From Pseudonocardiaceae bacterium YIM PH 21723 (GTDB lineage: Bacteria > Actinomycetota > Actinomycetes > Mycobacteriales > Pseudonocardiaceae): a DNA stretch of 64,000 bases. The stretch is from assembly GCA_003600225.1 (NCBI GenBank), contig QZFT01000045.1, forward strand, positions 186,001 through 250,000, read 5' to 3'. Shown here in pieces: positions 37,562 to 55,114 of this stretch. The notes beneath the pieces were generated by a model, which was not told the DNA's origin, did not search any database, and was given only the letters and a program-made list of their open reading frames with translations. The position numbers and the translations under genes are program-made. The stretch's first letter is position 1. Each line of letters starts with the position of its first letter.

Positions 37562-38062
37562 CTAGACCAGGATTCCGGTGCAGTAGTCGGCGATGTAGGC
37601 CTTCTTCGCGGCCTCATCCCTGGCGGAGGTCAGGTACCGGGACCACGCGCGACGCTCGTGCGAGGTGCAGTCCAGCTCGAACACGTTCTGGGTCGGCTTG
37701 AACGCGCCCTCCTTCGGCGGGTACGGGTGGAAGCCGTCCTCGCCCAGGCCGTACAGCACCTGGTGCATCTCGTTGGTGTTGCGCCACACGATGACGAGCA
37801 GGAAGTAGCCCTCACCGTCCAGGTGCAGCATCGCGTAGCCCAGCTCGTCCCGGAACTCCAGGCGGCCGGCGTCGACCTCGGTCTTCAGGAACTCGCGTGC
37901 CTGGTCCCGGACCTCAGCCGGGGTGTCCCGGCCGGCCAGGTAGATGTCGTACCACTTGAGGTGTGCCCCCGGCAGGATCAGATCATCGGCAGGGACGATC
38001 GACTTCTCGGTGTGCGTGTAACCGGCAGGAATCTCGGCCAGCCGAGTGATTGCCTCTGTCAT
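37562..38062 (-). CDS. Unknown protein, last gene of the ten-gene operon
   Basis: A 166-residue soluble protein from the ATG at 38062. It has no signal peptide or membrane segment. The pattern is alternating strands and helices, with KWYDIYLAG near residue 35, LGYAMLHLDGEGYFLLVIVW in the middle, and HERRAWSRYLTS near the end. The Trp/Tyr/Asp-rich composition is reminiscent of a small binding or cyclase protein, but I recognise no family. It lies 26 nt after the ATP-grasp gene and its stop faces the palindrome at 37506, so it completes the operon. Confidence 0.6.
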   Translation of the reverse strand: MTEAITRLAEIPAGYTHTEKSIVPADDLILPGAHLKWYDIYLAGRDTPAEVRDQAREFLKTEVDAGRLEFRDELGYAMLHLDGEGYFLLVIVWRNTNEMHQVLYGLGEDGFHPYPPKEGAFKPTQNVFELDCTSHERRAWSRYLTSARDEAAKKAYIADYCTGILV

Positions 38063-38088
38063 CTCACCATTCCCCTGTAGTGGTTGTT

Positions 38089-39321
38089 TCACTGCTCCGG
38101 GCTGTACAGCCCGTCGCGTTCGAGTTCGCGCAGTCGCTGGTAGTCGGCCTCGATCTGCGCCGGGTCGGCCGCGCTGAGGTACATGTATCCGGGAGAACTG
38201 GCCAGATCGACGGTGCGGTCGATCCGGGTGTGCGGCTTCTGCGTGACGATGAGTTCCAGGAACGACGGCAGCTCGCGCACCGGCGCCCAGCCCTGCTCGT
38301 CCGGGATCACGCCGTCGCTCGGCACGATCAGGTTCAGGAACCGCACGTGGTTCAGCAGCTGATAGCCGGGCAGGCCGCCGCCGGTGATCTCCGCCGGCCG
38401 GGCGATCGCCCTGGCCAGCAGATCCACCTGGTCGGTGCCGATGCAGCGGGACACGATCTCCGGCAGGTGCGCGCCGCCCAGCCGGGCACCGCTCTCCACC
38501 AGGACCGGTCCGTCGGCGGTCAGCATGATCTCGGTGTGCGCCGCGCCGTTGCGGATCTCCAGGGCGTCCAGCACGCCGAGGGCGTACTCGCCGACCGCCT
38601 TGGCGTCCGGTTCGTCGGCGGCCACCGGGTGCTCGTTGCTCACCATGGAGCGGTTGGCGTCGATCTGCTGCTTCCGGTAGCGCCAGATCTCCACGATGTG
38701 GTGGGCACCCTCGCGGCTGACGGTGTTCACGAAGTACTCGTCGCCGTCCAGGAATCCCTGGGCGAGGGCGGTCTCGTTGCGCCTGCCGTAGCGGTCCTCG
38801 GCGGACAGGATGCTCGCGTGCCCGTCCCGGATGTCCTGCTCCGAGTGGCAGAAGTGCACGTTGTCCATGCCGGCGCTGGCCACCGGCTTGAGCACGACCG
38901 GCCATTCGCCCCTGGCGAGCGCCCAGGCCACGACCTCGTCGGCGGACGGGGAGGCGAAGCTGTCCGCGACGGCCAGCCCGGCCCGCTCCGCCGCCAGGAC
39001 CATCCGGTGCTTGTCCCGCCGCGACGCCGGATCAGTGGTGCCGTTGGCGGGGGTTCCCGCCGCGACCGACAACGCGTCGGCCAGCAGCACACCGGATTCC
39101 ATGGCGGCCACGACGAATCCGACGCCCAGCTCGCGCAGCCGGGCCGCGGTGGCCTCGACATCGCCCTCGTGCTGGATGTCGATGTCGAAGTCACCGGGCT
39201 GGTAGTCCAGGTGGACGTCCGGGAACTGCGAGCGCACGTGGATCGGCTCCACGCCGTACTTCCGCAGCGCGTCGGGCAGGAATCGCCCGATGCCGTACGC
39301 GTCGACCACGGCGCATTTCAT
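38089..39321 (-). CDS. ATP-grasp ligase
   Basis: A 410-residue ATP-grasp enzyme from the ATG at 39321. The central domain contains PASRRDKHRMVLAAERAGLAVADS, PVVLKPVASAGMDNVHFCHS (ATP-binding Lys), FLDGDEYFVNTVS, and AAHTEIMLTADGPVLVESGARLGG with the metal ligands. The N-terminal region is a Rossmann-like preATP-grasp part. The group includes L-amino-acid ligases and enzymes joining amino acids with phosphorylated acids. In this operon it probably forms an amide between an amino acid and another carboxylate. It overlaps the exporter gene by 4 nt. Confidence 0.83.
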   Translation of the reverse strand: MKCAVVDAYGIGRFLPDALRKYGVEPIHVRSQFPDVHLDYQPGDFDIDIQHEGDVEATAARLRELGVGFVVAAMESGVLLADALSVAAGTPANGTTDPASRRDKHRMVLAAERAGLAVADSFASPSADEVVAWALARGEWPVVLKPVASAGMDNVHFCHSEQDIRDGHASILSAEDRYGRRNETALAQGFLDGDEYFVNTVSREGAHHIVEIWRYRKQQIDANRSMVSNEHPVAADEPDAKAVGEYALGVLDALEIRNGAAHTEIMLTADGPVLVESGARLGGAHLPEIVSRCIGTDQVDLLARAIARPAEITGGGLPGYQLLNHVRFLNLIVPSDGVIPDEQGWAPVRELPSFLELIVTQKPHTRIDRTVDLASSPGYMYLSAADPAQIEADYQRLRELERDGLYSPEQ

Positions 39322-40283
39322 GAGGGCTCCTTTATCCCGGCGACCTGCGCGGCCACCCTGGCGTCGTGCTTGGACCGGGCCACGGTGCTGATCGCGACGA
39401 GCGCGACGATGCCCACGACACCCGCGAACGTGACCGCCGACGGGGTAAGCCGCTGGTCGGGCAGTTGCAGGAAGAAGGCGAACAGCGGGGAGAGCGTCAG
39501 GATGATCGACGCGGTGATGGGCTCGGTGTGCTTGATGCCGACCTGCAGCAGGTACAGCGGAACCGCGACGCCGATCACCGCGATGACCGCGGACGGCAGG
39601 AACGCCGCACCGATCCCGGGCTGGGCGGTGAACGCCACGGTCACCCAGGTGACCGCCAGCATCAGGAAGAACCGCACGGCCAGCACGGACTGGGGCTTCA
39701 AACCCGCGTCGCTGAGCCGCTTCGAGTAGATCACGTTGGTCACCGAACCGATGCCGGTGAGCAGCGTGAGGCCGATGCCGATCGCGGTGTCCACAGTGGA
39801 CGTCTCGCCCACGCCACTGTGTCCGGTCAGCGATCCCCACACCAGCATCGCGATCATCACGCCGATACCCAGCGAGACGTACACCTCGGTACGCAGCACC
39901 GAGGTCCCCCGCCGCAGCAACGGGCTGATCAGCACGGTCAGCAGCGGGCCGAGCGCCAGCCCGACCACGTTGACGATCGCCGGCTCCAGGTACTTCAGCG
40001 CGTACAGCATCGACAGCCAGGTCGTCGCGGTGGTGATGTTGATCATGATCACATCGCCGCGGTTGACGGTCAGCGGTCGCAGCGTGGCGGCAAGCCCGCG
40101 CCTGGCCGAGTCCACGCCGATGAAGAACAACGCGGTGAGCGTGAAGGAGATCGCCGCGATGGTCGCCGGATTGTGCGCCTGCAGCTGGTTTCCGGCGAAC
40201 ACGTCCAGCGCCGCGGTGAGGAAGGCGAAGCCGCCCAGGGGGATGAGCCCCTGGGCCAGCTTCGTCCGGGGTACTTCGGTCAC
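39318..40283 (-). CDS. EamA-type (DMT) transporter
   Basis: A 321-residue protein with about ten hydrophobic helices in two EamA halves. LKYLEPAIVNVVGLALGPLLTVLISPLL and KHTEPITASIILTLSPLFAFFLQLPDQ are matching half-repeats. Drug/metabolite transporters of this type export amino acids and derivatives. Its place between the PLP enzyme and ATP-grasp genes, with 4-nt overlaps on both sides, suggests it exports the pathway product or an intermediate. Confidence 0.85.
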   Translation of the reverse strand: MTEVPRTKLAQGLIPLGGFAFLTAALDVFAGNQLQAHNPATIAAISFTLTALFFIGVDSARRGLAATLRPLTVNRGDVIMINITTATTWLSMLYALKYLEPAIVNVVGLALGPLLTVLISPLLRRGTSVLRTEVYVSLGIGVMIAMLVWGSLTGHSGVGETSTVDTAIGIGLTLLTGIGSVTNVIYSKRLSDAGLKPQSVLAVRFFLMLAVTWVTVAFTAQPGIGAAFLPSAVIAVIGVAVPLYLLQVGIKHTEPITASIILTLSPLFAFFLQLPDQRLTPSAVTFAGVVGIVALVAISTVARSKHDARVAAQVAGIKEPS

Positions 40284-41650
40284 AGAAGAGTCACCTCGGG
40301 GATGCTCGCGGCAGCCTGCTGCAGGATCGCCTCGTCGGCGATCTCGTCAGTCAGCTGACCCGCGAAGTACTTGTCATAAGCGGACAGATCAAAGTGTCCA
40401 TGGCCCGACAAGCCGAACAAGATCGCCCGGGACTGCCCTTCCTCGCGGCAGCGAATGGCCTCGTCGATGGCCCCGCGGATCGCGTGGGTGGACTCCGGAG
40501 CAGGCAGAATGCCCTCGGACCTGGCGAACTGCACGCCCGCCTCGAAGCACTCCAGCTGGCCGACGGCGGTCGCCTCGATCAGCTCCTCCTCCAGCACCCG
40601 GGTGATCAGCGGGCCGATGCCGTGTGCCCGCAGACCACCGGCGTGCACGGCGGGCGGCACGAACTTGTGGCCCAGCGTGTGCATCCGGAACAGCGGGCCG
40701 AGCCGGCCGGTGTCGCTGTAGTCGTAGGCGATCTGCCCCTTGGTCAGCGTCGGGCAGGCGGCGGGCTCCACCGCGATGACCCGCACCTTCTTCCCGCCGC
40801 GCAGCTGCTCGCCGAGGAACGGGAAGGACAGGCCGGCCAGGTTGCTGCCGCCGCCGGAGCAGCCGACCACGATGTCCGGGTAGTCGTCGGCCATCGCCAT
40901 CTGGAGCAGGGCCTCCTGGCCGATGACGGTCTGGTGCGCCAGCACGTGGTTGGCCGCGCTGCCCAGGCAGTACCCCAGTTCCGGGTTCTGCATGGCGACT
41001 TCGAGGGCCTCGGAGGTCGCGATGCCCAGGCTGCCCGGGGAGTCCGGGTCCTCGGCCAGGATCGCCCGGCCGGCGGCGGTCTCGATGCTGGGGCTGGGGA
41101 TGCAGGTCGCGCCGAAGGACTCCATCAACGCGCGGCGGTACGGCTTCTGCTCGAAGCTGACCTTCACCATGAAGACCTTGGCCGTCATCCCGAACATCGC
41201 CGTGCTGAGCGCGGCCGCGCTCCCCCACTGGCCGGCGCCGGTCTCGGTGACCAGGCCGGTCTTGCCCGCCAGCTTGTTGTAGTACGCCTGCGGGATGCCG
41301 GTGTTCGGCTTGTGACTGCCGGTCGGCGCGACGCCCTCGTACTTGTAGTAGATCCGGGCGGGCGTGCCGAGCGCCTTCTCCAGGCGGCGGGCCCGGAACA
41401 GCGGGGACGGCCGCCACTGCGCGTAGAGCTGCCGGACCGGCTCCGGGATCTCGAACTCCCGCTCCGTGCTGGTCTCCTGCTCGGCGAGCTCCTTGGGCAT
41501 CACGTGCAGCAGGTCATCCCGGCCCAGTGCCGCACCGGTGGCCGGGTCCAGCACGGTCGCGTCCTTGGCGTCCGGCAGATCGGCGACGATGTTGTACCAG
41601 GTGGTAGGGATGTCCTTCTCGTCGAGCTGAAACTTGATCTTCTCCACCAT
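40280..41650 (-). CDS. TrpB2-like PLP-dependent enzyme
   Basis: A 456-residue protein of the long TrpB2 class of tryptophan synthase beta subunits. The Schiff-base Lys is Lys114 in GSHKPNTGIPQAYYNK; TETGAGQWGSA, GCSGGGSNLAGL (phosphate-binding glycine loop), AVEPAACPTLTKGQ and NLSGHGHFDL-like sequence near the end match the family. No trpA or other trp gene is near, so a beta-replacement or amino-acid-forming role for a specialised product is likelier than primary tryptophan synthesis. The ATG at 41650 is selected because the upstream frame lies antisense-like over the transglutaminase-like gene. Confidence 0.85.
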   Translation of the reverse strand: MVEKIKFQLDEKDIPTTWYNIVADLPDAKDATVLDPATGAALGRDDLLHVMPKELAEQETSTEREFEIPEPVRQLYAQWRPSPLFRARRLEKALGTPARIYYKYEGVAPTGSHKPNTGIPQAYYNKLAGKTGLVTETGAGQWGSAAALSTAMFGMTAKVFMVKVSFEQKPYRRALMESFGATCIPSPSIETAAGRAILAEDPDSPGSLGIATSEALEVAMQNPELGYCLGSAANHVLAHQTVIGQEALLQMAMADDYPDIVVGCSGGGSNLAGLSFPFLGEQLRGGKKVRVIAVEPAACPTLTKGQIAYDYSDTGRLGPLFRMHTLGHKFVPPAVHAGGLRAHGIGPLITRVLEEELIEATAVGQLECFEAGVQFARSEGILPAPESTHAIRGAIDEAIRCREEGQSRAILFGLSGHGHFDLSAYDKYFAGQLTDEIADEAILQQAAASIPEVTLL

Positions 41651-41670
41651 GAGGTCCTTGAGCTCCCTGA

Positions 41671-42360
41671 CTAGACGGTTGTGGAGGAATCTGCTTCGTC
41701 CACGAGCGAACCCGGCGCGGTGACGGTCACCGATTCGGGGAAGAGCAGCGGGTGGGCCTGCCTGATGCCCTCGACCACCCGCTCGTAGGGCACGTCGTCG
41801 AAGTCGCCGTGCATCCGCAGGAACTCCATGTGCCTGCGGCCCAGCTGGTCGTGCGGGTGGTAAAGGCTGTCCTGGCGGCCGTCGAAATCGAGCGGCTTGA
41901 TCTGGTACAGCCGGCAGAGCAGCTTGTTGAACACCGGTGTGGCCTTGACCCACTTGCCGTCCAGGTACACCGAGTTGAGGCTGTGGTAGCGGAAGATGTC
42001 TCCGCCCACGAGCTTGCGCAGCCGATCGGAGGCCAGGTGGTTGCGCACGTCGCCGTAGGTGATCCGGCAGGGGATGCCCATCGATCGCACGGCGGCCGCG
42101 TACACGATCGCCTTGTGCACGCAGAAGCCGAATCCGGCCTCCAGGATGGAACTGGCCCGCAGCCCGGTGCGGGACAGGTCGGCGCCGTACACCTCGTAGT
42201 GGATGCCGTCGCGGACGGCGTAGTACAGCGCGACGGCCTTGTCGATGTCGGTCATCCCGGTCTCGTCCGGGATGGCCTCGGCGACGAACTTGCGCACCGC
42301 CGGTGTTTCGTAGTCCAGGAACTCCGTGGGGCCACGGAGCGCATCTAGGTCGGATGACAC
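41671..42360 (-). CDS. Transglutaminase-like cysteine enzyme
   Basis: A 229-residue protein of the transglutaminase-like (PF01841) type. The nucleophile Cys80 is in AGFGFCVHKA, and His126 in FRYHSLNSVYLDGKW. The usual Asp after the Trp is not present: the sequence reads KWVKATPVFN. The C-terminus has FDGRQDSLYHPHDQLG. The fold is used by cysteine proteases and by amide-forming enzymes; AdmF of andrimid biosynthesis is a precedent for joining a carrier-bound acyl group with an amine. It follows the acyl-CoA dehydrogenase gene by 10 nt. Confidence 0.75.
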   Translation of the reverse strand: MSSDLDALRGPTEFLDYETPAVRKFVAEAIPDETGMTDIDKAVALYYAVRDGIHYEVYGADLSRTGLRASSILEAGFGFCVHKAIVYAAAVRSMGIPCRITYGDVRNHLASDRLRKLVGGDIFRYHSLNSVYLDGKWVKATPVFNKLLCRLYQIKPLDFDGRQDSLYHPHDQLGRRHMEFLRMHGDFDDVPYERVVEGIRQAHPLLFPESVTVTAPGSLVDEADSSTTV

Positions 42361-42370
42361 GGTGGGGCTC

Positions 42371-43534
42371 CTACGCTTTCGTGGGTTTCACGGCGCGATG
42401 CAGGCCGATCAGGGTGGAGATCCGCTGTTTCTGGATCTCCGTGGTGCCGGAGTAGATCGTTCCGGCGACCGCGTTGCGCAGCTCCTTCTCCAGGCCGTAC
42501 TCGGCGGTGTAGCCGTAGCCGCCGAAGACCTGGATGGCGGACAGCGCGGTGCGCACATTCGCCTCACTGGTGATCAGCTTGGTGATCGCGATGTCGATGG
42601 AGACGTCCTCGCCCTCGGCGAGCTTCTCCGCCGTGTCGAAGATCCACTTGGCCGAGGTCTCCACGTCGATCTTCATCTCGACGATCTTGTTCGCCAGGGA
42701 CTGGTAGGACCCGATGTGTGCGCCGAACTGCGTTCTGGTGCGGGCGTATTCGACGCAGCGCTCCAGCCGGTTGCGCATCTCCCCCACGTTGATGACGAAG
42801 GAGCACAGGATCTCCCGCTTCATCACGTGGTCGAGGACCAGGAATCCGGCGCCGACCGAGCCGATCACGTTGCGCCGCGGCACCCGGACGTCGTCCAGGA
42901 ACAGCTCGCACAGCGGTGAGGTGCGCAGTCCCATCTTCTCGATGGGATTGCCCCTGGTCAGCCCCGGTGAGTCCGTCTCGACCAGGAAGGCGGTCAGCCC
43001 CGCGGGGTTCTCCGGCTTCCCGGTACGGGCGTACACCACGATCACGTCGGCGATGGGCCCGTTGCTGACGAAGGCCTTGGTGCCGTTGAGGATGAAGTCA
43101 TCCCCGTCGGCCACGGCGGTGGTGCGCATCCGCATGATGTCCGAGCCGCCCTCCGGCTCGGTGATGGCATGCGCGCCGATCGTCGTGCCGGCGCAGATCC
43201 CCGGCAGGTAGCGGGCTTTCAGGCCGGCGGAGCCGAACCGCTGCAGCGGCACACCCGCGCTGACCATGTGGGTGGACACCGAGAAGTTCAGCCCGCCGTC
43301 CCGGCAGCTCTCGCCCAGCCCCTCCAGCACGTACAGGGTGGTGACCAGGTCCTGACCGAGGCCGCCGGACTCCTCGTCGAACGGCAGCCCGAACAGGCCG
43401 GTCTCCGCGAGGAGTTTCCACCCGGTCTCACTGAAGGTGCCGCTGTGATCGCGGGCGATGTGACCGGCCTCGATGGCCGGTCCGATCGCCTGGATCCCCG
43501 CGCGCAGCTCGCGCTGCTGCTCAGTCGCCCGCAT
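42371..43534 (-). CDS. Acyl-CoA dehydrogenase homologue, probably acting on a carrier-bound substrate
   Basis: A 387-residue ACAD-fold flavoprotein. ITEPEGGSDIMRMRTTA and FVSNGPIADVIVVYARTG are FAD and substrate signatures, and the C-terminal motif is GGYGYTAEYGLEKELRNAVAGTIYSGTTEIQ. Where short-chain enzymes have Glu in IYEGT, this protein has Ser362 (IYSGT); a base elsewhere is possible, as in some ACADs. The gene sits beside an ACP and an adenylation gene, like PltE/RedW with PltL and PltF, which suggests oxidation of an aminoacyl-S-carrier. It overlaps the cupin gene by one base. Confidence 0.82.
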   Translation of the reverse strand: MRATEQQRELRAGIQAIGPAIEAGHIARDHSGTFSETGWKLLAETGLFGLPFDEESGGLGQDLVTTLYVLEGLGESCRDGGLNFSVSTHMVSAGVPLQRFGSAGLKARYLPGICAGTTIGAHAITEPEGGSDIMRMRTTAVADGDDFILNGTKAFVSNGPIADVIVVYARTGKPENPAGLTAFLVETDSPGLTRGNPIEKMGLRTSPLCELFLDDVRVPRRNVIGSVGAGFLVLDHVMKREILCSFVINVGEMRNRLERCVEYARTRTQFGAHIGSYQSLANKIVEMKIDVETSAKWIFDTAEKLAEGEDVSIDIAITKLITSEANVRTALSAIQVFGGYGYTAEYGLEKELRNAVAGTIYSGTTEIQKQRISTLIGLHRAVKPTKA

Positions 43535-43911
43535 CAGTATTCGGAGAATTCGTCGGTGTCCAGCCGGTGCCGCTCATCGCCGTGCAGCGGCGGGTTGAAC
43601 ACGCTGAGCAGCTCCAGATCCGAGTCCGGGGCGGCGATCAGGAAGTGCGCGTCGTGCTCGTTGAGCGCGTACAGCACGCCCGGCGTGATCTCGTACGTCG
43701 TGGCGCCGTCCGCGGTGACCACCTGACCACGGCCGCCGATGCAGTAGCAGGCCTCCAGATGTCTGCGGTACTGCAGCAGGGATTTCGTGCCCGCTCTGAC
43801 CACGGTGTGGCACACGGTGAAACCCATGCCGTCGGCCTCGAGCAGGAATCGGTGGCTGGTGCCGTTCCCCCACTCGACGACCTTCACCTCGTCCTTCTGC
43901 TTGACGATCAT
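43534..43911 (-). CDS. Ectoine-synthase-like cupin
   Basis: A 125-residue protein from the ATG at 43911. It aligns over its full length with EctC: start MIVKQKDEV, middle HLEACYCIGGRGQV, VLYALNEHDAHFL, and end SVFNPPLHGDERH. The putative iron ligands are Glu53, Tyr81 and His89. Their spacing (28 and 8 residues) equals that of Glu57, Tyr85 and His93 in characterised EctC. EctC cyclises N-gamma-acetyl-diaminobutyrate to a tetrahydropyrimidine. No ectA or ectB gene is nearby, so this copy probably closes a ring on a different amide substrate. Confidence 0.85.
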   Translation of the reverse strand: MIVKQKDEVKVVEWGNGTSHRFLLEADGMGFTVCHTVVRAGTKSLLQYRRHLEACYCIGGRGQVVTADGATTYEITPGVLYALNEHDAHFLIAAPDSDLELLSVFNPPLHGDERHRLDTDEFSEY

Positions 43912-43937
43912 TGTTCTTCCCCCCAAGGGTTCGGTTG

Positions 43938-44198
43938 TCAGCTACGGGTGGACGCCTCGACGAAGTGACCGATGGCGTCGATGGAGCGGAAGTCATCCGG
44001 CGAGAGCTCGACCTCGTCGAGCGGGACGTGGAAGCGCTGCTCGACCCAGCTGATCAGCCGCAACAGGCCCAGGCTGTCCACGACCCCGTTGTCGATCAGG
44101 TCGTAGGAGTTGTCGAGTTCCTCGCTGGGTGTGCCCGGCAGGAATTCCGCCAGGATGTGTGCCTTGATGGTCGATGCGACCGTTTCGGTCGTGCTCAT
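43938..44198 (-). CDS. Acyl/peptidyl carrier protein
   Basis: An 86-residue carrier protein. The phosphopantetheine site is Ser42 in NGVVDSLGLLRLIS, and helices flank it as usual. The highly acidic surface near DEVELSPDDF suits docking to an adenylation enzyme. It lies between the adenylation gene (4-nt overlap) and the cupin gene (26-nt gap). No condensation domain is present, so it serves free-standing enzymes. Confidence 0.9.
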   Translation of the reverse strand: MSTTETVASTIKAHILAEFLPGTPSEELDNSYDLIDNGVVDSLGLLRLISWVEQRFHVPLDEVELSPDDFRSIDAIGHFVEASTRS

Positions 44199-45625
44199 AC
44201 CTCTCCTGCCAATAAGGTTTCCTTGATCAGCTTTCGATTCACCTTGCCGGTCGAGGTCAGCGGGAGTGCCCGCTCGACGATCTGGATGTGCGACGGGATC
44301 GCGGCCCTGGCCAGCCGCGCGGCGCAGTGCCGGCGCAGACCGAGTCCGGTCAGCCGCGCGTCCTTGCCGCGGACGACGGCGTGCAACCGTTGCCCCGCCT
44401 CGGGATCGGGCAGCGCGACCACGCCGACCTCGGCGACCTGGTCGTGCTCGGCGATCACCCGCTCGATGTCCTCGATGCTCACCCGCACGCCGCGCACCTT
44501 GACCTGGAAGTCGGTGCGCCCGACGAGCGTCAGCTCGCCCTCGGCGTCCCGGTGCACCAGGTCACCGCTGCGGAAGAACGTGTGGCCACCGGGTCCAGCG
44601 ACGAACCGATCCGCCGCCTCGCCGAGGTAGCCCCGCGTCTGGAAGGGCGTGGTCACCCACAGCTCACCGGTGCCCGGCCCGGTCAGCTCGCCCTCGTCGG
44701 TCATCAGCAGCGCGGTGACGCCCGGCAGTGGGTTGCCGAGCGGCACCACGTCCCGCGCGGCTGCCTCCGCGCCGTCGAAGGAGTGCAGGAAACTGTCGTT
44801 GGTCTCGGTGCACCCGTAGATGTTGTGGAACCGGGCGTTCGGGAAGATCCCGGGCAGCGCGGCCCGCAGCGCTCGTGGCGTGTGGTCGCCGGTGAGCACG
44901 ACGTGCCGCACGTCCGGATAGCCGCGGTCCTCCGCCGCCTCCGCGAGGATCCGGAAGAACATCGGCACGGCCTGGATCACGTGTGGCTCGCCGGTGTCCA
45001 GGAGGTCCATCAGGTACCGCGCGTTCACCGCGTGCCCGGAGTCGACCAGCGTCACCCGGCCGCCGGCCCGCAGCGTCGCCCAGATGTCGAGTAGGCACAG
45101 GTCGAAGTTGAGCGGCGCGTAGTTGAACACCGTGCTGTCCGGTCCGAGCCCGAACTCGGCGATGGCCCAGTCCATGAACCGCTCGGTGGCCGCCGCGTCG
45201 AGGGGCACCACCTTGGGCCGGCCGGTGGAGCCGGAGGTGGTCAGCAGGAACCTGACCGGGTCGCCGGGGTCGGTGGTCACCGCGGTCTCCCGCAGTGCGA
45301 TTCCGGCGTCGGTGGCGGTGGCGATCTGCCTGCACCCGGTGCGGGTGAGCAGGTCGTCCAGGGCCTCGGCTCCGAGGTCGGCGGCGGGCAGCAGTACCGG
45401 CCTGCCCGCCTGGACGCAGGCCAGCACGAACGCGATCGTCTCGGGGGACTTGGCCGCCGCCACCGCGATCGGTCCTGTTCCGGGAGCCGCGTCCAGGGTG
45501 GCCGTCGCCCGCTCGACCAGTCCGGCCAGCTCCGGGTAACCGACATCGTTGCCATGCCACCGGAGCGCTGGGGCATCCGGACGCTGGACGGCGTGCGCGA
45601 GCACGTCCTCCACCAGGGAGTTCAT
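44195..45625 (-). CDS. Free-standing adenylation enzyme (amino-acid/AMP ligase)
   Basis: A 476-residue ANL-family enzyme without fused carrier or condensation domains. Core motif A3 is LTTSGSTGRPKVVP (129-141). A4 begins FDLCLLDIW with Asp175 at the position that normally contacts the amino group. A5 is IYGCTETND (269-277), A7 is FRSGDL, A8 is GRTDFQVKVRGVRV, and A10 Lys is Lys461 (STGKVNRK). A tentative pocket reading is D-L-L-Q-V-T-I-D-S. The first three agree with prolyl enzymes such as PltF, but the others do not, so the substrate is open. It probably loads the ACP encoded next. Confidence 0.85.
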   Translation of the reverse strand: MNSLVEDVLAHAVQRPDAPALRWHGNDVGYPELAGLVERATATLDAAPGTGPIAVAAAKSPETIAFVLACVQAGRPVLLPAADLGAEALDDLLTRTGCRQIATATDAGIALRETAVTTDPGDPVRFLLTTSGSTGRPKVVPLDAAATERFMDWAIAEFGLGPDSTVFNYAPLNFDLCLLDIWATLRAGGRVTLVDSGHAVNARYLMDLLDTGEPHVIQAVPMFFRILAEAAEDRGYPDVRHVVLTGDHTPRALRAALPGIFPNARFHNIYGCTETNDSFLHSFDGAEAAARDVVPLGNPLPGVTALLMTDEGELTGPGTGELWVTTPFQTRGYLGEAADRFVAGPGGHTFFRSGDLVHRDAEGELTLVGRTDFQVKVRGVRVSIEDIERVIAEHDQVAEVGVVALPDPEAGQRLHAVVRGKDARLTGLGLRRHCAARLARAAIPSHIQIVERALPLTSTGKVNRKLIKETLLAGEV

Positions 45626-47046
45626 CGCGACGACCCGTCGGCGGGCCGCACGGCCCGGGTACCGCGGAACAGGTTGTCCGGGTCGTAGCGGCGCTTCACC
45701 TCGGTCAACCGGGTGTAGATGGCTGAGCCGTATGTCGCCTCGGCGCCGGCCGGGTCGTCGTCGAGCGAAATATAATTGACGTAACCGCCGGGGTGTTCCC
45801 ATTCCTGCAACGTGGAAATGCACCCACGCGCCCAGTATTTGCCGGTATCATCCATTTCCGGCGCATCCCAGGAACCGTACGCACTGACCATGAACGGCGC
45901 GTGTCGCTGCGGAAAAGCGGAACTTTCGCCGTCGGCCCGGGAAACCTGCCCGAGGAGGAACTCGATGTCAATCGATCCGGTGCGGGACGGGTTTTTCGCG
46001 GCGGAGTCGATGAGCCGATCGATCGCCTCATCCGGAAGTTCCGTCACATATCCGGACTTGGTGTAGTACCGTCGCCCGTCGGGCGAGCTCTCATCGGTCA
46101 TGGTCTGCAATTCCAGATAACTCAGGACCGACTCGCCGGCAACCCCCTCCGGCATGCGATCAAACAGTTCGCGGGCCTGCTGCGCACTCGTTTCATCGTC
46201 GGCCGAATATATTGCCAGCATGTCCAGCACCGGGCGATCGGCCAGTTCCTCCGGGATCTCGTCGCCCGGGCGGGCGTGCCGCAGCCCGCCGAGCAGGTGG
46301 AAGTCATCGGAGATGGTCGCGGTCGCGTCCCGGTAGGCCCGGAGCGCGATGGCAACGTTGTCGCCGGCGTAAAGCCCGGTGCGCAGGACCAGCCGGCCGA
46401 CCGGGCGCAGGGCGAGCCGGAACTTCGTCACGACGCCGAAGTTGCCGCCACCGCCACGCAGCGCCCAGAGCAGGTCCGGGTTCTCCGTCTCGGAGGTCTG
46501 CACGATCGTTCCATCGGCCAGCACCACCTCGGCGCCGATGATGTGATCGCAGGTCAGACCCCATTTACGGCAACGCCAGCCGTATCCGCCACCCAGCGCC
46601 AGCCCGCCGAGACCGGTGTAGGAGAACACCCCGGCCGGGCAGCACAGACCGTGCTCCGTGGTGGCGATGTCGACATCGCGCAGCAGGCAGCCGCCATCGG
46701 CCTCGGCGACCCGCGCATCCACGTCAACGTTGACTGAACGCATCAAGGAAAGGTCGATCATCACACCGCCGTCGGTGACCGAGGTACCGGCCACGTTGTG
46801 CCCGCCGCAACGCACGGACACATCCAGCTCGGCGCCGCGGGCGTACCGGATGGCCGCACTGACATCGGCGGCCGACCGGCAGCGCGCGATCAACGCGGGC
46901 TTGCGGTCGATCATCCCGTTCCAGATTCGCCGGACCGTGTCGAATTCCGCGTCATCCGGCGCGAGTAGCACCCCCTGAAATAATTCCCGCAATTGCCCTG
47001 CGGTCACAACGTCACGCATTACGTCCCCAGCGCTCGACGAACTCAA
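45622..47046 (-). CDS. BBE-like FAD-linked oxidoreductase, first gene of the operon
   Basis: A 474-residue berberine-bridge-enzyme-like flavoprotein. VSVRCGGHNVAG carries His83, the expected covalent FAD attachment. The second Cys of bicovalent members is not at the usual spacing; the sequence TGLGGLALGGGYGW matches the mono-covalent class. The C-terminal RRYDPDNLFR is the standard BBE end. Such enzymes oxidise alcohols, amines or rings with O2. The TTG at 47046 has GAGGAA 5 nt upstream; an ATG at 47019 is the alternative. It overlaps the adenylation gene by 4 nt. Confidence 0.82.
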   Translation of the reverse strand: MSSSSAGDVMRDVVTAGQLRELFQGVLLAPDDAEFDTVRRIWNGMIDRKPALIARCRSAADVSAAIRYARGAELDVSVRCGGHNVAGTSVTDGGVMIDLSLMRSVNVDVDARVAEADGGCLLRDVDIATTEHGLCCPAGVFSYTGLGGLALGGGYGWRCRKWGLTCDHIIGAEVVLADGTIVQTSETENPDLLWALRGGGGNFGVVTKFRLALRPVGRLVLRTGLYAGDNVAIALRAYRDATATISDDFHLLGGLRHARPGDEIPEELADRPVLDMLAIYSADDETSAQQARELFDRMPEGVAGESVLSYLELQTMTDESSPDGRRYYTKSGYVTELPDEAIDRLIDSAAKNPSRTGSIDIEFLLGQVSRADGESSAFPQRHAPFMVSAYGSWDAPEMDDTGKYWARGCISTLQEWEHPGGYVNYISLDDDPAGAEATYGSAIYTRLTEVKRRYDPDNLFRGTRAVRPADGSSR

Positions 47047-52380: not shown

Positions 52381-52388
52381 GGATGATC

Positions 52389-53500
52389 ATGACCTCGCAC
52401 ATTGCCCACTCACTCAGACCGGTGACCGACGACTACCAGACCGGCGGCTTCTTCTTCAGCTCACCGTCCGGTGTGCTGCTGGCCGACAGCCTGGGTGAAT
52501 CCCTGACCGGACAGCGGATCCCGACGGGCGCCCTCGCCGTCGGCGCCCTGCCGTTCGTCGATCCGGCCAGTTCGGAGGCCACCGTCCCGGCGCGACTGTC
52601 CATTCCGGACGGCGTGCGCCGCGCGGAGCCGCTGCACATCCGGCCGCTGCCCCCTCATCCCGGCACCGGAACCCACTGGATCGACCAGCACACGGACTCG
52701 GACGCCTACCTCACCGGCGTCTCGCGTGCCCTGGAACTGATGGCCGACGGCACACTGTCCAAAGTGGTCCTGGCCCGCACCCTGGAGCTGACCGCCGCCG
52801 AACCGATCGACCTGCGCCGGGTCCTCGGCGCACTGGCCGCACGGGACCCGCACGGCTACACCTTCGCCACCGACGTCGGCGGCCGCACGCTGATCGGCAC
52901 CAGCCCGGAACTGCTGATCCGCAAGACCGGGGACAGCGTCGTCTCCAATCCCCTGGCCGGTTCCCGGCCACGCAGCGCGGATCCGGAGAGCGACGGCCGC
53001 AACGCCACCGAACTGCTCGCCTCGGCCAAGGACCGCGCCGAACACGCGCACGTGGTCACCGCGGTGGCCGACGCGCTCGCCCCGTTCTGCCTGAACCTGA
53101 CGGTGCCCAGCGGCCCGGAACTGCTGCCCACCCCGGCGATGTGGCACCTGTCCACCCGCATCACCGGCGAACTGCGCGCGGACGTCACCTCCCTGGAACT
53201 GGCCTCCGCCCTGCACCCGACCCCCGCGGTGTGCGGCGTGCCGATGACCACGGCGCGCACGGTGATCAGCGAGCTGGAACCGTTCGCCCGCGACTACTAC
53301 ACCGGCCTGGTCGGCTGGATGGACGAGCACGGCGACGGTGAGTGGATCATCGCCCTGCGCTGCGGCGAGGTACACGACCGCACCCTGCGGCTCTACGCGG
53401 GCGCCGGCATCGTGCCCGGTTCCACCCCGGAGTCCGAACTGGCCGAGACCAGCGCCAAGTTCCGCACCTTCCTCGGCGCCCTCGGTATCCAGGAGGCTCG

Positions 53501-53504
<4 letters not shown>
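52389..53504 (+). CDS. dhbC: Isochorismate synthase
   Basis: A 371-residue chorismate-binding enzyme. [12 protein letters not shown] has the conserved Lys, [24 protein letters not shown], and [10 protein letters not shown] follow, and the acidic metal site is in [14 protein letters not shown]. It converts chorismate to isochorismate as the first step to DHB. The ATG at 52389 with AAGGA upstream is preferred to that at 52383. It overlaps dhbE by 4 nt. Confidence 0.93.

Positions 53505-55114
<1,610 letters not shown>

Follow-up and report, generated by a model that had tools for sequence, protein, structure and literature searches.

An EctC-like cupin as the probable ring-forming enzyme of a carrier-protein-dependent aminopyrrole module in a Pseudonocardiaceae genome

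Results

A ten-gene operon surrounds the EctC-like gene

The window analysed here, a stretch of 64,000 nucleotides from Pseudonocardiaceae bacterium YIM PH 21723, carries ten closely spaced genes on the minus strand. The first encodes an FAD-linked oxidase (45622-47046; FAD_binding_4 and BBE domains, PF01565 E 4.3e-32 and PF08031 E 1.3e-7), and is followed by a stand-alone amino-acid adenylation domain (44195-45625; PF00501 E 9.1e-44, TIGR01733 E 1.2e-62) with the specificity code D-L-L-Q-V-T-I-D-S-K, an acyl/peptidyl carrier protein with a DSL motif (43938-44198; PF00550 E 7.2e-6) and the EctC-like cupin itself (43534-43911), our candidate for a glutamine-amidine cyclase. Downstream lie an acyl-CoA-dehydrogenase-fold protein nearest to PigA/RedW, the putative ring aromatase (42371-43534; NF053553 346 bits, NF045652 332 bits), a transglutaminase-like cysteine protein (TGL) that may act in carrier release (41671-42360; PF01841 E 9.1e-17), and a TrpB-like PLP enzyme of the TrpB2 type with a proposed beta-substitution on serine (40280-41650; NF009057 666 bits). 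An EamA/DMT-family exporter (39318-40283; PF00892 E 2.5e-13), an ATP-grasp L-amino acid ligase (38089-39321; NF005543 335 bits) and a small protein of 166 amino acids that matches no profile (37562-38062) complete the set.

From the FAD oxidase onward, the gaps between these genes are -4, -4, 26, -1, 10, 20, -4, -4 and 26 bases, with the FAD oxidase and adenylation genes overlapping by 4 bases, the start of the dehydrogenase gene overlapping the stop of the EctC-like gene by 1 base, and the EamA and TrpB genes overlapping by 4. The first-pass annotation had placed the EctC-like gene in an ACP-dependent operon beside adenylation and ligase genes, a setting that the profile matches and the gene spacing confirm. 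All ten genes also occur in Streptomyces palmae (L034) and Kitasatospora indigofera (L035), where the FAD oxidase homologues stand at 71% and 52%, respectively. Since these two loci carry the full set without the window's flanks, we delimit the unit at 37562-47046. The flanking genes (Lrp, LLM oxidoreductase, nucleoside deaminase, phosphotransferase, MptB-like and ABC transporter) are missing from both loci and were rejected as cluster members. The GC content of the operon equals that of the window (0.678), and a scan of promoters and terminators gave no signal exceeding shuffled sequence. Elsewhere in the window, at 52383-55114, isochorismate-synthase-like and 2,3-dihydroxybenzoate-AMP-ligase-like reading frames were recognised by eye and may represent a catecholate siderophore cluster.

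Several of the neighbouring enzymes retain candidate functional residues. E241 of the dehydrogenase is kept in 84/84 aligned rows, and C80 and H126 of the TGL protein, which has no sequence match in the PDB, are kept in 62/62. The best PDB match of the ligase is the L-amino acid ligase 30vh (E 1.2e-61). The small protein has no match in Pfam, NCBIfam, PHROG or PADLOC, and none among PDB folds at E <= 0.001, the best Foldseek hit (E 0.028) and the best VIA hit (Z 5.3) being too weak to name a fold; it does have an invariant His, an invariant Glu and a KWYDI motif.

The EctC-like protein has the fold and iron ligands of ectoine synthase

The EctC-like gene comprises 125 codons, with its ATG start at 43911 and its stop at 43534-43536. 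The first-pass coordinates were right, but they apply to the minus strand, and the plus-strand translation is unrelated. Its product is a genuine member of the family, as had been claimed, matching both the Pfam Ectoine_synth profile (PF06339; E 4.5e-34, 117.9 bits against a cut-off of 27) and the NCBIfam ectoine synthase profile (NF009806; 139.8 bits, above the cut-off of 128), matches that are far beyond chance. In line with this, an AlphaFold2 model built from 31 rows (pLDDT 90.5, pTM 0.82) has the cupin fold, and a Foldseek search of the PDB returned ectoine synthases as the eight best matches, led by 5onm (E 1.6e-11, 43% identity, rmsd 1.6).

The iron ligands of the S. alaskensis enzyme are Glu-57, Tyr-85 and His-93 (PMC4795551). 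Their counterparts in the window protein are E53, Y81 and H89, with the spacings of 28 and 8 residues that the earlier annotation had described, and this arrangement is kept in 86/86 members of the clade defined below. Furthermore, all 13 EctC residues listed as strictly conserved in PMC4795551 are identical in the window protein once the alignment offset is applied. The equivalents of the substrate residues Thr-40, Tyr-52 and Arg-25 are kept as well, and two further substrate columns, Trp-21 and Asn/His-38, are changed, a difference on which the first-pass annotation did not remark.

The window protein lies outside the canonical ectoine synthases

No ectA/ectB operon surrounds the window gene, and the reported lack of EctA and EctB therefore holds locally. 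It does not hold genome-wide: ectA, ectB, a canonical ectC and ectD are adjacent on another contig (C48), each above its NCBIfam cut-off. Across this genome (97.7% complete), no EctA match besides that on C48 and no further EctB match over the cut-off were found. The canonical EctC on C48 and the window protein are 37% identical over residues 15-115. Since a complete ectABCD set is present on a different contig, the window gene is not part of a split ectoine pathway, a possibility that the separate clade described next likewise rules out.

In a careful tree of 70 rows, the canonical EctC proteins, those of ect operons, fall on one side of a branch with 100/100 support and the window protein falls outside them; a quicker tree built on 87 rows gives the same picture. 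Both trees rest on 131 columns, with class II and class III rows (see below) thinned and with the interrelations of the branches weakly resolved. The phylogenetic placement that had been proposed as a check thus sets the window protein apart from true EctC. Among 390 genomes of the family, matches tallied by hand from the listing comprise 67 places in 54 genomes at 55-100% identity, four at 47-49% and a remainder at or below 46%. When 396 genomes were sampled evenly across the phylum, just two of them, the source genome included, exceeded 50% identity to the window protein.

Within the clade, the iron ligands and the equivalents of Ser23, Arg25, Thr40 and Tyr52 are kept in 86/86 members. The column of Trp-21 is Gly in all 86, and a WGNG motif three residues upstream of it supplies a Trp in every one. 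Position 38 is Cys in 29, Ala in 29 and Thr in 28, and mostly His in the canonical rows (13/14); in P. lautus EctC it is an Asn that contacts the substrate carboxylate (PMC6344544). Loss of this carboxylate contact might suit a carrier-bound substrate. In S. alaskensis EctC, a Cys-to-Ser change at position 103 is tolerated, with 84% activity (PMC4795551).

A conserved module accompanies the clade

We then surveyed the neighbours of the best 80 of 391 relatives, ranked by likeness to the window EctC-like protein. These 80 loci come from actinobacteria and from proteobacteria of marine origin (Vibrio, Grimontia, Alteromonas, Leisingera and Pseudovibrio). Encoded on the EctC strand are an adenylation domain in 79/80, a carrier protein in 77/80 and a dehydrogenase in 78/80. 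Together with the EctC-like gene these constitute what we call the aminopyrrole module, and all four occur together in the window. The remaining operon genes are less frequent among the same 80: TGL occurs in 58, TrpB in 19, the small protein in 8 and the ligase in 6, with the FAD oxidase and EamA exporter in 2 each.

As a control, the module was found at 0/14 canonical EctC loci, 12 of which extend over only ~4.3 kb so that ~2 kb on each side was covered, and at 0/6 loci with intermediate EctC proteins. Three rhizobial plasmid EctC proteins of ~60% identity also come without the module, and identity alone is therefore no marker of it; a locus at 54% identity (L181) was viewed over its 3.4 kb only. 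At two of the intermediate loci (L122, 7974-11619; L123, 7962-9325) the EctC gene adjoins an ectoine-hydroxylase-like reading frame, recognised by eye, and L122 has an NRPS-like gene too; neither locus has a canonical operon or the module.

One adenylation code is common to four classes of downstream genes

Beside the module, the loci differ in their downstream genes, from which we assigned four classes by hand on the basis of neighbour searches, the labels then serving to name groups in alignments and trees. Class I carries PsuG and a HAD phosphatase (12/80 loci plus Burkholderia L118, at least 13 clusters), and class II an arylmalonate-decarboxylase/EutA-like protein (Amdase), usually with a nucleoside deaminase. 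The nucleoside deaminase gene in the window is only distantly like the deaminases of other classes (26-43%). In Streptomyces triticisoli (L113, 900-5000, minus strand), a set of PsuG, HAD and Amdase-like genes lies on the opposite strand to an adjoining class II module. Class III has TrpD-, TrpF-, TrpC- and TrpA-like proteins beside the module (L117, 10000-15099; also L066, L073, L105 and others), as if an indole-type pathway ran on an aminopyrrole in place of anthranilate. Class IV, to which the window belongs, has TrpB beside the module. Some relatives of this TrpB branch (L037, L044, L050 and L069) carry additional biosynthetic genes: in L044 (15494-19944 and 1326-6661), profiles identified glutamate-mutase-like S and E genes and a further ATP-grasp ligase gene, together with PabAB-like and dihydropteroate-synthase-like genes, and inspection by eye added an S-like gene for L050 and a PabAB-like one for L069.

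The adenylation domains of the clade have a code D-L-L-Q-x-T-x-D-S-K that is nearly invariant over 85 rows (D235, T301 and K517 in 85/85; Q278 and D330 in 84/85 each), its positions read by alignment to those of GrsA. The PsuG, Amdase, TrpDFCA and TrpB classes all have this same code, and the substrate of the adenylation domain is therefore probably the same in all four.

For class I, the biosynthesis of showdomycin offers a precedent. In this pathway, SdmE cyclises L-glutamine to 2-amino-1-pyrroline-5-carboxylate, acting on free glutamine before loading and not on the carrier; SdmC activates and SdmD carries, oxidation and hydrolysis ensue, and SdmA (a C-glycosynthase) and SdmB (a phosphatase) then act (PMC8724604). 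In class I loci we found no cyclase candidate besides the EctC-like protein. As the class I gene set matches this logic, we read the module-bearing members of the clade as SdmE-type cyclases, from which gene content we infer that SdmE is itself an EctC homologue; the titles and abstract openings of the open-access literature searched yielded no paper tying EctC-like proteins by name to showdomycin. Moreover, H. elongata EctC is described as turning glutamine into the same cyclic amidine, ADPC, in a side reaction of very low efficiency (PMC5924519). The first-pass suggestion that the window protein cyclises an amide other than the ectoine precursor thus fits well with the separate clade and the ACP-dependent neighbours, but the absence of ectoine genes on which it leaned is only local, and the likely reaction has precedent in SdmE and in the formation of ADPC by EctC. 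None of the ten operon genes encodes a PsuG/YeiN-like C-glycosynthase or a HAD phosphatase, so the operon lacks the make-up of a C-nucleoside cluster, and the only Indigoidine_A match of the genome is on contig C17.

The TrpB-like enzyme belongs to a cluster-specific clade

The window TrpB matches NF009057 and TIGR01415 above both cut-offs (666 and 574 bits), and its PLP lysine (K114) and catalytic glutamate (E136) are kept in 21/21 rows. Together with the TrpB proteins of related clusters it forms a single clade (support 100) with nine diagnostic columns, from which the two other TrpB2 proteins and the TrpB1 of its own genome are excluded. The two TrpB2 paralogues, on contigs C21 and C20 (L172 and L173), are ~55% identical to the window TrpB.

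A search with TrpB alone across the 390 family genomes placed all of the 25 best matches (at least 671 bits) within 7 kb of an EctC gene of the orphan clade, and comparing the two listings by hand put none of the matches at or below 603 bits near a listed EctC of that clade. This tracking ties the TrpB subfamily to aminopyrrole-type clusters. Of the six matches in between, one (G042) has an EctC, and the 19-kb stretches of the other five (L214-L218) contain none. Among the latter, four are without the adenylation domain and the dehydrogenase and have only TrpC, in some cases joined by TrpD, TrpF and a carrier. In the fifth (L218, 8300-15700) an adenylation domain, carrier, dehydrogenase, TGL, TrpB and TrpD/F/C/A homologues occur with no EctC within the 19 kb; the cyclase can therefore be absent or encoded elsewhere.

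With TrpB present in 19/80 loci, the enzyme belongs to a branch and not to the core. The trio of TrpB, ligase and small protein recurs in L221, where the module is on the opposite strand, and the titles and abstract openings of the open-access literature searched gave no paper describing this TrpB-ligase variant. In two loci (L102 and L106) TrpB of the same clade also stands beside TrpD/F/C/A homologues, the simplest reading being that an indole-like heterocycle is built from the ring. Most simply, TrpB would carry out C-C coupling of an electron-rich aminopyrrole, the role that PsuG would have in class I. As this cluster-specific TrpB takes the place of the C-glycosidase in the window, the aminopyrrole would probably next be coupled to serine by TrpB and afterwards ligated into a peptide.

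Discussion

A proposed pathway from glutamine to an aminopyrrole and beyond

Taken together, the genomic context makes it probable that the EctC-like protein is the SdmE-type ring closer of a module producing a glutamine-derived 2-aminopyrrole carboxylate, with TrpB and the ligase acting downstream. This putative ring-forming role is well supported by the context in which the gene occurs. From the genes, their order, the clades and the conserved residues described above, we infer every reaction and product of the operon as follows. The adenylation domain would activate glutamine, or its cyclised form, and load it onto the carrier protein. The Fe-cupin would join the side-chain amide carbonyl and the alpha-amine of free or carrier-bound glutamine with loss of water, giving a five-membered cyclic amidine, which the PigA/RedW-like flavoprotein would oxidise to an aminopyrrole for the TGL cysteine protein to free from the carrier. 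The following steps would be specific to the window: the TrpB-like enzyme, instead of a PsuG-type C-glycosidase, would couple the ring to the aminoacrylate of serine to give an (aminopyrrolyl)alanine, ring oxidation may fall to the FAD oxidase, and the ATP-grasp ligase would add another amino acid before export by EamA. The presence of a ligase and an exporter suggests a small peptide as the product.

More tentatively, we put forward the possibility that, once TrpB has joined the serine aminoacrylate to the EctC-derived 2-aminopyrrole, the FAD oxidase or air converts the ring to a maleimide, the product being beta-(maleimidyl)alanine within a ligase-made peptide, and that a single EctC-built aminopyrrole feeds at least four branches: PsuG towards C-nucleosides, TrpD/F/C/A as an analogue of the indole pathway, Amdase with a deaminase, and TrpB.

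The best placed of the alternatives, in our judgement rather unlikely, concerns this second half of the pathway: the window TrpB may have nothing to do with the ring, making instead tryptophan or another beta-substituted alanine that the ATP-grasp protein merely ligates to the aminopyrrole acid. Tryptophan is a possible product of TrpB2 enzymes, both K114 and E136 are intact, and a ligase could join two independent building blocks; against this stand the specificity of the TrpB clade for these clusters and its occurrence beside the TrpD/F/C/A homologues in L102 and L106.

It is unlikely that the EctC-like protein cyclises a substrate other than glutamine (asparagine, an N-acyl-diaminobutyrate or an ornithine-derived amide) to yield a different amidine for a peptide. 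The altered EctC pocket would be compatible with such a substrate, as would an adenylation code which, read by alignment to the GrsA positions, is without an experimentally proven match, but the same code occurs in the PsuG-containing showdomycin-type clusters, for which the published precursor is glutamine (PMC8724604). Quite improbable, in turn, is a role in which the cupin closes no ring and instead hydrolyses or isomerises the amidine, or acts after ring oxidation. Such a role could draw on the report that ADPC formation by EctC is reversible, with its equilibrium towards glutamine (PMC5924519); however, the conserved module genes hold no alternative cyclase candidate, and carrier-bound coupling to the dehydrogenase would be expected to pull the equilibrium. 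Finally, a second ectoine synthase, kept as a spare or relocated copy for osmoprotection, would agree with the two profile matches over cut-off, with the identity of all 13 residues listed in PMC4795551 and with the rescue of ectoine synthesis in an H. elongata mutant by the solitary EctC of P. syringae (PMC5924519), but is very improbable given the complete canonical ectABCD on C48, the 100/100 branch to the canonical EctC proteins, the Gly in the Trp-21 column in 86/86 and the Cys, Ala or Thr in place of Asn/His-38, and the translational coupling of the gene to carrier-dependent genes.

Significance

The role of solitary EctC proteins has been called an open question (PMC5924519). Our analysis connects an entire clade of such proteins, through their gene context, with aminopyrrole assembly, and makes their role testable by a single carrier-protein assay. 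If the TrpB coupling is correct, this branch would represent a tryptophan-synthase-like enzyme acting on a showdomycin-type ring, and, with oxidation of the ring to a maleimide, would place the showdomycin warhead on an amino acid instead of ribose, giving an electrophilic amino acid. The combination of EctC-like protein, adenylation domain, carrier and TrpB would then provide a genome-mining handle for what may be a family of electrophilic amino-acid antibiotics.

Comparison with known systems

The window protein has the cupin fold, the iron ligands and the 13 residues in common with the ectoine synthases of P. lautus (5ONM) and S. alaskensis (5BXX), but unlike these it belongs to a separate clade, has Gly in place of Trp-21 near its WGNG motif and has no adjoining ectA or ectB. 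The prolyl-carrier-protein dehydrogenases PigA and RedW, which act on a carrier-bound five-membered ring, are the top NCBIfam matches of the window dehydrogenase and have the acyl-CoA-dehydrogenase fold in common with it; its scores of 346 and 332 bits, however, fall short of the curated thresholds (500 and 650), and it is not an equivalog. In the same manner, the window TrpB has the profile matches, the lysine and the glutamate of TrpB2 but forms a clade of its own, and the window ligase has the ATP-grasp fold of L-amino acid ligases such as the dapdiamide synthase DdaF, to which it scores 191 bits, well under the DdaF cut-off of 840. The closest parallel is the showdomycin (Sdm) system of Streptomyces showdoensis, in which a stand-alone adenylation domain, a carrier, a glutamine cyclase, oxidation and release lead to 2-aminopyrrole-5-carboxylate by the same logic as proposed for the window, and clade members with the showdomycin-type PsuG and HAD genes carry the window's adenylation code. 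The proposed cyclase thus fits a known logic for which showdomycin is the precedent and, compared by gene content alone, the window differs from the Sdm system in having the TrpB, the L-amino acid ligase, the FAD oxidase, EamA and the small protein.
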